A stretch of 64,000 nucleotides of DNA. It comes from an uncultured Ilumatobacter sp. (GTDB lineage Bacteria; Actinomycetota; Acidimicrobiia; Acidimicrobiales; Ilumatobacteraceae). The position numbers and the translations under genes are program-made. This document shows, piece by piece, positions 7,448 to 11,826 of the stretch. Positions within the stretch are counted from its first letter, which is position 1. The number at the start of each line of letters is the position of its first letter. The stretch spans positions 62,001-126,000 of the forward strand of contig CAJQPY010000010.1 in assembly GCA_905480335.1 (NCBI GenBank). The letters run 5' to 3'. Below the pieces are notes generated by a model. That model saw nothing but the letters and a program-made list of their open reading frames with translations. It made no database searches and was not told the origin of the DNA.

Positions 7448-8242
7448 TCAGTCGGCGATGCCTTCGATGGCGGCGGGGTGAAGTGCTGGTGTGGCCGCAA
7501 CCACACCGTGCGGGGCAGTCACATTGATGTCTGAGCTGTCGAACGCAGTGACAATTCCGCCAGCTTCGGTGACGAGAAGAACGCCGGCCGCGATGTCCCA
7601 GGACTTGACGAACTCCTCGAAGTACAAGTCGACGCGACCGCTAGCCACGTACGCCAGGTCGAGTGCAGCACTGCCCTGGCGGCGGATGTCACGGACGGTC
7701 GGCAGAACGCGCGCAATGCGCGCAGCCTGGACTTGGCGGTGGCCGTCGAGGTGATAGCTGAACCCAGTAGCGGCGAGCGAAGTCGCCAGATCCGTGGAGC
7801 CCGAAACGTTCACGGCAACGCCGTTGATGGTCGTGCCGCCGCCGAGAGCGGCGCTGTACAGCTCGTCGACGACGGGCGCATAAACCGCCCCGGCGACGGG
7901 GTGGCCGTCGCGCAGCACAGCGATCGAAGTGCACCAGCCGGGCAGGTCGTAGACAAAGTTCACCGTGCCGTCGATTGGGTCGATGTGCCACTCGTACGCA
8001 GACGTGCCGGTATGGTTGGCGCCCTCCTCGCCCACGATCGAGTCGTCAGGTCGTTCGCGACGCAAGCGATCGACGACCATCGCCTCGGCTAAGCGATCAA
8101 ACTCGGTGACCGGGTCAACTGCGCTTGACTTCGTCGCATGGGCAGCACGTACACCGGGCCCGAGTTGACGGCGAGAACGAAAGGCGAACGATCCTGCCTC
8201 GTGGGCGATCTCGTCGCAAAGGGTCCGGAGTGAAGCGTCCAT
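7448..8242 (-). CDS. Inositol monophosphatase family phosphatase
   Basis: 264 aa, a Mg-dependent, Li-sensitive-type sugar phosphatase fold. Seen: VGEEG (metal-binding Glu pair), the signature WHIDPIDGTVNF at about 85-96, and the C-terminal signature KSWDIAAGVLLVTEAGG. Substrates in actinobacteria include inositol 1-phosphate, histidinol phosphate and fructose 1,6-bisphosphate. Because the window encodes PIM and mycothiol steps, which both need inositol, an inositol-phosphatase role is plausible but not proven. Its ATG overlaps the stop of the upstream small membrane gene (ATGA at 8242), so the two are translationally coupled. Confidence 0.85.
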   Translation of the reverse strand: MDASLRTLCDEIAHEAGSFAFRSRRQLGPGVRAAHATKSSAVDPVTEFDRLAEAMVVDRLRRERPDDSIVGEEGANHTGTSAYEWHIDPIDGTVNFVYDLPGWCTSIAVLRDGHPVAGAVYAPVVDELYSAALGGGTTINGVAVNVSGSTDLATSLAATGFSYHLDGHRQVQAARIARVLPTVRDIRRQGSAALDLAYVASGRVDLYFEEFVKSWDIAAGVLLVTEAGGIVTAFDSSDINVTAPHGVVAATPALHPAAIEGIAD

Positions 8243-8535
8243 CAGGCTCCGGGTGAGTGGCCGGCCGCTTCACGGTCAGTTGTCTCGCGCCATTCGCCGA
8301 GCGCCCGCATCACCAGAACGGCAACGATAGCCATGCCGCCTGCGGCCATCGCCGCACCGACGAGCAGGCCGACGCCGAGAGGCAGAGCGCAGTCGCCTTC
8401 GCACTGGAGTTCGACAAGCGAATAGCCGATGAGTCCGCCGGCAAGTCCGCTGAGCAAGATCGCGACAAAGGCGCCGACCCGCACACCGACGCCTGGGATC
8501 GCCGACAACGGCCGGCTGGGATCAGAAGCATCCAT
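8242..8535 (-). CDS. Small double-transmembrane protein coupled to IMPase
   Basis: 97 aa, family not recognised. Two hydrophobic segments at about 19-39 (GAFVAILLSGLAGGLIGYSL) and 53-76 (GVGLLVGAAMAAGGMAIVAVLV) are separated by a short loop with two Cys (CEGDC), which could form a disulfide on the outer face. The start codon lies inside one arm of a perfect 17-bp inverted repeat whose loop contains the -10 TAGCCT, an unusual arrangement. Its stop overlaps the start of the inositol-phosphatase family gene by 4 bases. Confidence 0.6.
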   Translation of the reverse strand: MDASDPSRPLSAIPGVGVRVGAFVAILLSGLAGGLIGYSLVELQCEGDCALPLGVGLLVGAAMAAGGMAIVAVLVMRALGEWRETTDREAAGHSPGA

Positions 8536-8567
8536 CGGCGCCGAGGCTAACGGCGCCGATGGATGCT
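8527..8567. promoter_or_regulatory. Perfect 17-bp inverted repeat with -10 box in its loop
   Basis: Arms AGCATCCATCGGCGCCG (8527-8543) and its exact complement (8551-8567) enclose a 7-base loop AGGCTAA. On the minus strand the loop reads TTAGCCT, containing the -10 hexamer TAGCCT, and the downstream arm contains the ATG of the small membrane gene 8 bases later. The upstream arm ends at the stop codon of the substrate-binding lipoprotein gene. No T-run follows, so a simple intrinsic terminator is not supported. It could be an RNA hairpin ending the upstream transcript or a palindromic operator. Confidence 0.6.
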
Positions 8568-9994
8568 CACAGAGCGGGTAGGTACTCGAACGCAGAGACC
8601 GTTGCGAGGCCGGGAACCTCCTGCAGTTCCCCGCTTTCGTTCAACTCGATGACGGGAAACTCGAACGTGCACACGCTTGGGTAATCCACCGCTTTCCCGC
8701 AGTCGAAGGGCAACCCCGACGGCCAGATCGATTCGTTTGTCGACCCCATGTACTCGTAAAGGGATTGGCCTGTGACCTCACCGCCCTCGCTGACAATGGC
8801 GTCAGCGAACTGGGCAAGTGTCATGGCTTGGACAATCCCGAGTCCGCCAAGTCCGAGTGCACTCGGATCGATCTCGTCAGCGGGGACGTCGAGGATCGGC
8901 GACATGATCTCGGCAATTAGGTCGTTAGCTGCGCTCGGCTCATTCGTTTGCGCTCCAAGGAAGATCCAGCCGAGCGCATCATCGCCGACCTGCTCGAGGA
9001 CCTCGGCCGCAGCGCACGAACTTGTAGCCAACACCGGGGTAGTGATGCCGAGGGAGGAACGGCCGCGCATGGTGCCGATACAACCCGCGTTGTCGTAGAG
9101 CGACACCAGTAGGTCTGGATCGCCGGAATTCGCCTGCGACATCAGACCCTGAAAGCCTGCGTCGGTCTCTTCGGTCCCACCCTTGATCGATGTGTACTCG
9201 ATGCCGGCAAGGTCGAGCGAAGCGGTCAACGATGCCTCTGTTCCGTTCGATCCAGGAGCGTCGGCGCTAATGATCCCAACGGATTGGGCATCGAATTGTT
9301 CAGCAGCAACTGCGGCAATACCGGCCGCGAGTGTGGCGTTCCCGCCGGTCACAAACAGAGCCTCCGCCGTGTAATCGCCGGGCAAGAGCGGCAGAAGACC
9401 GATCACCGGGAGGCCGGAGGCTTGGAACGTCGGATAGCTGGGGAAGAGATCGAGGCCTAGTAGCGCGAGATCGACGCCAGAACCTGCGATTTCCTGCGCG
9501 CATGACTGTGAGGTCTCGGGTGAACCCTTCGAGGCGCATGACACCAGTTCGAGCGGACGTCCGCCGTAGCCGCCGTGTTCGTTGAGGTAGGCGAAAGTTG
9601 CCTCGGTGTTAATGCGGATGTCAGGAAAATCGAGCCCGGGCACGCCCTCGGAGTTGATCAGCCCGATTCTCAGTGGTTCGCCTGTGGGCGGACCGAGTTC
9701 GGGCACCCGTGACGTGAAATCGCCCTCGACATCGGTTGACGGTGCATCGGTTGCAGCCGGCGCGTCGGTCGCGTCGCCCGCCTCGGTAGTTGCCGTCTCG
9801 TCAGCGTCGGCGACGGTGTCGGTCGTTTCGTCGTCGGCCGCTGCTGGTTCGGTGCCAGCCGGGGCCTCAGTGCCGTCGGGTTCGGAGTCCGACGTTGAAT
9901 CCGTCGAGTCGCTCCCGCCCGAGCATCCGGCCGCGACTAGCGACGCAGCCACCAGTCCGCACGCCAGACGTCGACCAGTTGTACGCCCGATCAC
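8567..9994 (-). CDS. Orphan substrate-binding lipoprotein (LivK/Peripla_BP_6 type)
   Basis: 475 aa from GTG 9994, which has a strong GGAGG seven bases upstream; the longer ORF to 10087 is not needed. Signal peptide with lipobox VAAGC, then a 75-residue linker very rich in Ser, Thr, Asp, Ala and Glu, then a type I periplasmic-binding fold (PLRIGLINSEGVPGLDFPDI; HGGYGGRPLELVSCASKGSPE), as in branched-chain amino-acid or amide receptors. It should be anchored on the outer face of the membrane. No ABC permease or ATPase gene is adjacent, so it may serve a transporter encoded elsewhere or act as a sensor. A CRP-like palindrome lies 96 bases upstream. Confidence 0.85.
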   Translation of the reverse strand: MIGRTTGRRLACGLVAASLVAAGCSGGSDSTDSTSDSEPDGTEAPAGTEPAAADDETTDTVADADETATTEAGDATDAPAATDAPSTDVEGDFTSRVPELGPPTGEPLRIGLINSEGVPGLDFPDIRINTEATFAYLNEHGGYGGRPLELVSCASKGSPETSQSCAQEIAGSGVDLALLGLDLFPSYPTFQASGLPVIGLLPLLPGDYTAEALFVTGGNATLAAGIAAVAAEQFDAQSVGIISADAPGSNGTEASLTASLDLAGIEYTSIKGGTEETDAGFQGLMSQANSGDPDLLVSLYDNAGCIGTMRGRSSLGITTPVLATSSCAAAEVLEQVGDDALGWIFLGAQTNEPSAANDLIAEIMSPILDVPADEIDPSALGLGGLGIVQAMTLAQFADAIVSEGGEVTGQSLYEYMGSTNESIWPSGLPFDCGKAVDYPSVCTFEFPVIELNESGELQEVPGLATVSAFEYLPAL

Positions 9995-10584
9995 GTGAGG
10001 CCTCCGAGTCTGACGTCGCCTTTGGTTTTGTTCATCGTTGGACCCCCATCGCAACGTGCGTGGGCTCGGCAGATTCCGAACCCGCAATGTGTGACACAGG
10101 TTACACGTGGTGCTTGCGCGCCGACGATTCTGGTCGCGCTGCTGCGCGTCAGGTGGCCTTGACGTGCGGGCGCGAAACGGTGCCCGTCACCATCGCCTGA
10201 AGAACTGCAGATGAGAAGGATCGGTCGGGTTGCACCGCCGATGTCGACGTACCCGGCGGTTACTAATGTGTCCACGAACTGAACCACGAATTCGTCGTCG
10301 TAGCAGCGGGGGCGCCTGCCGTCGCTACGCGCCTCGGCATCAAGGAAATTATCGCTCACACCCTGGTTATTAAGGGCTGTCGGCCGGGAAACCACCGGTG
10401 CCTACGTGCCGTGCAGCACCCTGGCATTCGCCCGGTTGAAAAATCGGACGGCTGGTGGCAACTCTCAACGACTGCTTTGTTGCTCTCACGTCCGAGGCGG
10501 TCGCCACCTCTCGTCTCAACTTGGAAAGTCGTCGGCAGAGATGTTTGCGTTCTGGCACAATGTCGATCAGTGGGCGACGCAAAG
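9995..10584. other. 590-bp intergenic region between divergent lipoprotein gene and dinB
   Basis: No ORF here has recognisable homology. The minus-strand ORF extending to 10395 is low-complexity and runs through the lipoprotein start region in another frame. Visible elements are the Shine-Dalgarno of the lipoprotein gene (just upstream of 9994), a CRP-like palindrome at 10090-10105, and a weak -10 (CACAAT, 10556-10561) before dinB. I found no LexA/SOS-type palindrome in front of dinB. Confidence 0.5.
10090..10105. promoter_or_regulatory. CRP/GlxR-like palindrome
   Basis: TGTGACACAGGTTACA matches the cAMP-receptor consensus TGTGA-N6-TCACA with one mismatch (T for C). It lies 96 bp upstream of the lipoprotein GTG, a suitable place for activation or repression. 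Prediction from sequence only. Confidence 0.4.
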
Positions 10585-11826
10585 ATGAGAACCATTTTGC
10601 ACGCCGACATGGACGCTTTTTTTGTATCAGTGGAACTTCGGCGGCACCCTGAGCTCGTCGGCCAGCCCGTCGTTGTTGGAGGCACAGGGAACCGTGGCGT
10701 GGTGGCTGCGGCCTCCTACGAGGCTCGACGTTTCGGTGTTCACTCGGCGCTGCCGTCGGCGATCGCCCGTAACCGATGCCCACATGCGGTGTTCCTGGCG
10801 GGCGACCACGAGCACTACGGCAAAGTAAGCGCCGAGGTACGCGCCATCTTCGACCGGTATACGCCGTTGGTTGAACCGTTATCCCTCGACGAGGCATTTT
10901 TGGATGTGACGGGGGCGAAAGGGTTGTTCGGAAACGGTCCGAAGATTGCACAGCAAATTCGCAGCGAGGTGGCCGACGAACTCAATCTCGGGTGCAGCGT
11001 TGGCGTTGCGTCCAACAAATTCGTCGCCAAACTGGCGTCTGTTGAAGCCAAACCGCGCGCCTACGTGGACCGAATCGATCCCGGCGAGGGTGTGAAGGTC
11101 GTCGCTGCAGGAGCTGAGCAGGTGTTCCTCGATCCCTTGCCGGTCGAGCGACTGTGGGGCGTCGGGCCAGTAACTCTGGAGAAGCTGATTCGGCTCGGGA
11201 TCACATCCGTCCGTGACCTCCGACATGTCGACTTAGCGGTGTTAGCGACAGCTCTCGGGTCGAATCAAGCCCGTCACCTCGCTGCGTTGGCCGTTGGAGA
11301 CGATGACCGCGACGTCGAACCCGATCGGGAAGCCAAATCGATCGGTCACGAGGAGACGTTTGCTCGCAATGCGCACGAGCGAAGCGAGATGCGCACGCAT
11401 CTCGTCAGACTTGCCGATGCCGTTGCCAGCCGGTTGCGCAAGGCTGGGGTGGGAGCGCGCACGTTAACGCTCAAGGTGCGTTTCGATGACGGATTCACGA
11501 CGGTGACAAGGTCGACGACCGGGTCTGAAGCGATCGACAGCGCTGAGATGATCGTGGCCGTACTAGAGCCGATGATGGAAGCGATCGACCCATCACCGGG
11601 TATTCGCCTCGTCGGTGTGTCAGGTTCCAACCTCGGCCCGGTCTTTCACCAGATGACGTTGGACGAGGCCGTGGCTCATGCGCCTACGTTTGGCGCGACG
11701 GACGCGGCGCTAGACGTGATCCGGGATCGATTCGGCGCTGACGCGATTGGTCCTGCCAGCGCAGTGAGAGGCGGGAAGGTCCAGAACGTGCGGCGCGGTG
11801 GGCAGCAATGGGGACCGGATCAATAG
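10585..11826 (+). CDS. dinB: DNA polymerase IV
   Basis: 413 aa, Y-family translesion polymerase. The protein opens MRTILHADMDAFFVSVE with catalytic Asp residues in HADMDAFF; PLSLDEAFLDVT supplies the other acidic residues; VASNKFVAKLASVEAKP and the WGVGPVTLEKL helix-hairpin-helix follow; the C-terminal little-finger domain is present (TLTLKVRFDDGFTTVTRS). It copies past damaged bases at low fidelity. Start ATG 10585 is chosen because the conserved N-terminus begins there; the ORF upstream is unconserved. No beta-clamp motif is obvious at the C-terminus (ends QQWGPDQ). No SOS box was found. Confidence 0.93.
   Translation: MRTILHADMDAFFVSVELRRHPELVGQPVVVGGTGNRGVVAAASYEARRFGVHSALPSAIARNRCPHAVFLAGDHEHYGKVSAEVRAIFDRYTPLVEPLSLDEAFLDVTGAKGLFGNGPKIAQQIRSEVADELNLGCSVGVASNKFVAKLASVEAKPRAYVDRIDPGEGVKVVAAGAEQVFLDPLPVERLWGVGPVTLEKLIRLGITSVRDLRHVDLAVLATALGSNQARHLAALAVGDDDRDVEPDREAKSIGHEETFARNAHERSEMRTHLVRLADAVASRLRKAGVGARTLTLKVRFDDGFTTVTRSTTGSEAIDSAEMIVAVLEPMMEAIDPSPGIRLVGVSGSNLGPVFHQMTLDEAVAHAPTFGATDAALDVIRDRFGADAIGPASAVRGGKVQNVRRGGQQWGPDQ

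Follow-up and report, generated by a model that had tools for sequence, protein, structure and literature searches.

In high-GC actinobacteria the closest described counterparts of the element reported here are I-shaped terminators, long GC-rich perfect stems with a short loop that lie near a stop codon and lack a T-run, as exemplified by TtsaD of the M. tuberculosis alr-groEL1 operon (PMC5335608; PMC12288462). According to a review, mycobacteria usually terminate intrinsically at U-less stem-loops located no more than 50 bp from the stop (PMC12288462), and in a reporter study one I-shaped terminator was active in vivo (PMC5335608). In Streptomyces, U-lacking structured transcript 3' ends have been mapped by RNA 3'-end sequencing (PMC8269248). 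It is disputed whether actinobacterial transcription can end at hairpins of the U-less kind; both PMC5335608 and PMC12288462 cite Czyz 2014, which is reported to have found in vitro that the mycobacterial polymerase needs a U-tract.

Two other bodies of work bear on the element. Leaderless genes of M. tuberculosis are driven by TANNNT boxes placed a few nucleotides before an ATG or GTG, with no -35 consensus detected (PMC3898074), and template switching can create a hairpin with a perfect stem in one step, one arm being resident sequence and the other an inverted copy (PMC8794818). Our literature search found no account of a terminator overlapping a leaderless promoter, of leaderless genes in Ilumatobacter, or of U-less terminators in phiC31.

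A perfect palindrome at a gene junction

We analysed a 64,000-nucleotide stretch of draft-genome sequence from an uncultured Ilumatobacter sp. (the window). Positions 8527-8567 form a perfect inverted repeat of the form 17+7+17, with arms that are 100% complementary over 17 nt and a 7-nt loop (Table 1), and this is the sole perfect inverted repeat in the window with arms longer than 10 bp (loop up to 12). Dinucleotide-matched random sequence holds about 1.0 perfect repeats per window at 10 bp, 0.2 at 11 bp and 0.05 at 12 bp, and extrapolating from it gives an expectation of about 1e-4 per 64-kb window for arms of 17 bp. The predicted RNA fold of a 101-nt stretch over the palindrome reaches -52.4 kcal/mol (z = -5.25). 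The palindrome is well above chance and unusually compact, but mechanistically ordinary in kind.

The first-pass annotation of this DNA had described a flawless repeat with TAGCCT in its loop and an ATG in its downstream arm, and both points are borne out by the sequence, with all 17 of 17 arm positions complementary and the features read on the minus strand; the ATG is separated from TAGCCT by a spacer of 8 nt. That annotation had also let the palindrome span the stop codon of the upstream gene, which holds for a single base, since the A of the lipoprotein TGA is the first base of the stem and the rest of the codon lies outside the arm.

Several other identities were considered. A canonical (L-shaped) intrinsic terminator is ruled out by the absence of a T-run directly 3' of the stem, whose tail TCTGATCCCA holds no U-tract, and a consensus terminator scan returned nothing at the palindrome. 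A known RNA family is ruled out as well, the Rfam covariance-model search of positions 8200-8900 having given nothing at E up to 1. The arm sequence recurs elsewhere in the genome with 2-3 mismatches at best, in counts little above those of a reversed-pattern control, which rules out a dispersed repeat or mobile element. An assembly chimera is unlikely, as continuous genes occupy both flanks, dinB lies beyond the lipoprotein gene, and the small gene has the inositol monophosphatase gene as its neighbour, as it does in relatives.

The symmetry is centred on the -10 box, as might be expected if a dimeric regulator of the small gene used the palindrome as its operator, across the box and the start. 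We regard this as extremely unlikely, however, given that usual operators are shorter than this 41-bp perfect symmetry, that the site is not conserved in orthologous promoters, and that no second copy exists beyond the loose matches with 2-3 mismatches.

Table 1. Features of the palindrome and its neighbourhood, with the hairpin copies found in congener G001.
Feature	Position	Strand	Remarks
Inositol monophosphatase family gene	7448..8242	minus	Pfam PF00459, E=5e-62; next downstream of small gene
Small gene, 97-aa protein	8242..8535	minus	ATG 8535-8533; two hydrophobic stretches by inspection
Hairpin 3' arm	8527..8543	minus	CGGCGCCGATGGATGCT; promoter spacer and codons 1-3 of downstream gene
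-10 box TAGCCT (TANNNT) of predicted leaderless promoter	8544..8549	minus	TANNNT in family orthologues
Hairpin loop TTAGCCT	8544..8550	minus	Inverted-repeat analysis
Hairpin 5' arm	8551..8567	minus	AGCATCCATCGGCGCCG; inverted copy of promoter/start region; none in relatives
Lipoprotein TGA stop	8567..8569 (read 8569-8567)	minus	Sequence
Peripla_BP_6 substrate-binding lipoprotein, orphan	8567..10087	minus	Lipobox LVAAGC; longest ORF; Pfam PF13458, E=2.6e-23
dinB, DNA polymerase IV-like	10570..11826	plus	MDAFFVSVE N-terminus
Dispersed hairpin copies in G001	L152:3576-3614, L139:1860-1896, L154:18267-18301, L142:4199-4231, L153:7263-7295		

Genes around the palindrome

The lipoprotein gene, the small gene, the inositol monophosphatase gene and the two-component regulator pair that comes after it all lie on the minus strand. 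The 97-aa protein had no match in Pfam or NCBIfam searches, and its gene has matches in 140 of 151 genomes of the host's family, Ilumatobacteraceae (the family in all counts below); it represents an uncharacterised conserved family beside the inositol monophosphatase gene, whose motif was present downstream of the small gene in 11 of 11 loci examined.

The upstream side is less stable. In 5 of 10 other loci of the genus dinB is divergent and lies 64-111 nt upstream of the small gene, whereas here the two are split by the lipoprotein gene, which is missing at this position in relatives from the genus and is operonic elsewhere (by inspection). Its homologues in congeners mostly have a permease-like reading frame close behind (by inspection) and end in YLP*; the copy studied here is an orphan, ends in YLPAL* at the palindrome, probably starts further in than its longest frame (around 9952, the start chosen by the script gene caller) and has a paralogue of 58% identity on contig C31. 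Since the gene is mostly followed by a permease-like frame elsewhere and is an orphan here, with dinB on its far side, gene order suggests that it was an insertion right next to the promoter of the small gene.

The leaderless promoter is conserved and the hairpin is not

Of 66 alignable orthologous loci in the family, 64 have an in-frame ATG or GTG that follows the end of a TANNNT box at a distance of 5-9 nt. Across this genome such a box stands 5-9 nt before the start of 21.8% of called genes, versus 1.8% at a control offset, with a peak at 6-8 nt, and TAGCCT is the third commonest -10 sequence in the leaderless set, in which a clear -35 consensus was not seen. No Shine-Dalgarno sequence precedes the ATG of the small gene. 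Because the conservation in the family and the genome-wide excess agree with the pattern of M. tuberculosis (PMC3898074), TAGCCT with its 8-nt spacer is well supported as a normal leaderless promoter with a start predicted at or near the ATG, in keeping with the first-pass proposal of a -10 box and a leaderless start. The difference from the mycobacterial promoters is that here the -10 box falls in the hairpin loop of the upstream gene's transcript.

Relatives keep this promoter without the hairpin. A comparable stem occurs in none of the 65 other orthologous loci, where the longest measures 9 bp, and the palindrome is private to this genome. The position of the 3' arm corresponds to a region retained in relatives; the 5' arm has no counterpart in them, and in none of them does the lipoprotein gene occupy this site. 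A conserved regulatory structure is thus ruled out by the absence of the stem, the lack of paired arms in relatives is an outcome that the first-pass annotation had itself named as refuting its switch, and since the hairpin is confined to one genome it shows no covariation of its own.

Long perfect stems concentrate at gene ends

Sampled stretches of this genome totalling 1.25 Mb were scanned for perfect stems with arms of 12 bp or more and loops of 3-12 nt, with genes called by a simple script, so that single distances may be off. Of the 25 stems obtained, 14 fell in the interval from -3 to 60 nt relative to a stop codon, which accounts for 5.0% of the bases (p=1.7e-12). Near stops, stems of 9-10 bp were not enriched and those of 11 bp had a marginal bias. 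A 400-kb sample from a congener gave 10 of 18 stems near stops (zone 4.6%, p=1.4e-9). In the short gaps of this genome stem density was 24 per 100 kb between co-oriented genes and 30 per 100 kb between convergent ones, and the 39 kb of divergent gaps held just 1. The preference for 3' ends is not absolute in the congener, as its divergent gaps hold 4 long stems too. Most stems of the class have no T-run, and most hairpins of this kind at other gene ends do not overlap starts. The palindrome is therefore most likely one of many gene-end hairpins in this genome, not a dedicated on/off switch.

Another member of the class, a 12-bp stem between convergent genes (L072:14060-14088), starts on the A of a TGA, in the register of our palindrome, and abuts the stop of the opposite gene; it looks like a candidate bidirectional terminator.

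A U-less 3'-end hairpin over a leaderless promoter as the preferred reading

Taken at sequence level, we put the probability at roughly 0.6 that the palindrome is a U-less ('I-shaped') terminator-type hairpin, or a Rho-assisted or processed 3'-end hairpin, of the lipoprotein transcript, laid over the conserved leaderless promoter. In I-shaped terminators a stable stem-loop stands within about 50 nt after the stop, and here the stem starts on the stop itself; there is no U-tract behind it; and hairpins of the same sort recur at the gene 3' ends of this genome (14/25). The earlier suggestion of a possible terminator without a T-run gains support, as a prediction, from this genome-wide enrichment. 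The palindrome differs from TtsaD (PMC5335608) in starting on the stop codon, in overlapping the next promoter and start, and in that its activity is predicted. It shares with the 3' ends of Streptomyces clavuligerus a stable stem at a gene 3' end and the absence of a U-tract, although those ends were mapped by 3'-end sequencing and ours comes from prediction alone (PMC8269248).

Under this reading, a polymerase arriving from the lipoprotein gene would pass the -10 box and the ATG of the next gene before the hairpin could form, and the hairpin would then help to end or to stabilise the lipoprotein transcript. The small membrane gene would have a transcript of its own, driven by TAGCCT, that begins at the ATG or close to it and lacks the 5' arm, and on read-through the predicted burial of the AUG could provide secondary insulation. 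When an E. coli terminator was placed 5 bp from a stop codon its activity dropped from about 90% to under 10%, due to the translating ribosome (PMC4824070), which argues for a low termination efficiency of a stem so close to the stop whenever the gene is translated. Given this overlap with the stop codon, the stem may work chiefly while ribosomes trail behind the polymerase, or may cap the 3' end once Rho has ended the transcript.

If the reading holds, the locus is a case of extreme compactness, in which one 41-bp stretch would serve as gene end, promoter and start codon.

Predicted burial of the AUG

The first-pass annotation had the AUG sequestered in the read-through RNA and free in the leaderless one, and the fold model predicts just that: the probability of the AUG being unpaired is 0.001 in the former versus 0.45-0.62 in the latter. 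Together with the conserved leaderless promoter, this would suit the simple switch that was inferred from it, with the hairpin existing to keep read-through RNA from being translated into the small protein. We consider such a dedicated switch improbable because the arms are conserved in no orthologue and the hairpin is a member of a general gene-end class in which starts are mostly left free. Moreover, when the 10 nt after the stop were masked to model a ribosome at the TGA, the accessibility of the AUG rose to 0.33-0.88; a ribosome ending there would sit on a large part of the 5' arm and free the AUG again, so that the lock would leak whenever the lipoprotein is translated. There is also no Shine-Dalgarno sequence to sequester, and internal initiation would therefore probably be weak in any case. 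Burial of the AUG looks like a consequence of the fold and not a conserved switch.

The same rise in accessibility, and a stem that adjoins the stop codon, could be read the other way, as translational coupling in which the AUG stays hidden unless ribosomes finishing the lipoprotein melt the 5' arm. The promoter of the small gene is, however, its own and conserved, its association with the lipoprotein gene is not conserved, and it lacks a Shine-Dalgarno sequence, which makes coupling very unlikely.

Turnover and origin of the hairpins

Three loci outside the window illustrate how such hairpins evolve. The hairpin downstream of rplY (L25; L063:9923-9957) is common to three species, and several double-sided substitutions, that is, compensatory changes, retain its pairing. 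Upstream of purH this genome has an 18-bp perfect hairpin (L090:19018-19062) and another congener has a sequence-unrelated one of 18 bp (L180), with none as long in that gap among the other relatives read. At trpB the upstream hairpin (L073:13446-13474) is confined to this genome among the relatives compared. Its 3' arm carries a leaderless -10 box, TACCCT, at a distance of 8 nt from the ATG, the spacing seen at our palindrome; this arm is the conserved promoter, and the 5' arm is an inverted copy absent in relatives. For both purH and trpB, most relatives retain a recognisable leaderless -10 box. From these sequence comparisons, hairpins of the class come and go between species and the downstream leaderless promoters stay, and trpB is the closest parallel to the palindrome.

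A resident 3' arm joined to a 5' arm without counterpart, as seen at trpB and at the palindrome, is what a template switch should leave behind (PMC8794818). The palindrome was thus probably born in this way during replication, and its arms probably arose after the arrival of the lipoprotein gene, through a switch that inverted a copy of the promoter and start. The mark is clearer at trpB, and the palindrome differs from the described template-switch hairpins in that the locus offers no ancestral or intermediate sequence.

Such an origin could also have left a neutral by-product, a recent template-switch (quasipalindrome-correction) mutation whose perfect palindrome has no selected function. 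The perfect arms, their restriction to one genome, the 5' arm as an inverted copy of the promoter region and the comparable turnover at purH and trpB all fit this explanation; we nevertheless hold it to be unlikely, though worth keeping in view, since long stems cluster strongly at the 3' ends of genes, with few in the divergent gaps of this genome, and since one member of the class, at rplY, has undergone compensatory evolution.

Returning to the 3'-end hairpin, a bolder version would have Ilumatobacteraceae repeatedly build perfect U-less terminators by a single template switch that mirror-copies the next leaderless promoter, fusing terminator and promoter. We offer this as a speculation that is probably wrong; if true, the fused element would end one transcript and start the next, perhaps recycling the polymerase just released. 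As long gene-end stems differ between close species and the neighbouring promoters remain in place, function and origin can both be tested.

Finally, a congener (G001) carries a near-identical hairpin, CCGGACGGTTTGTCT-cag/ctg-AGACAAACCGTCCGG, dispersed over several loci at 2-38 nt after stop codons, with several copies between convergent genes (Table 1), and it is predicted to be a repeated terminator-like element.
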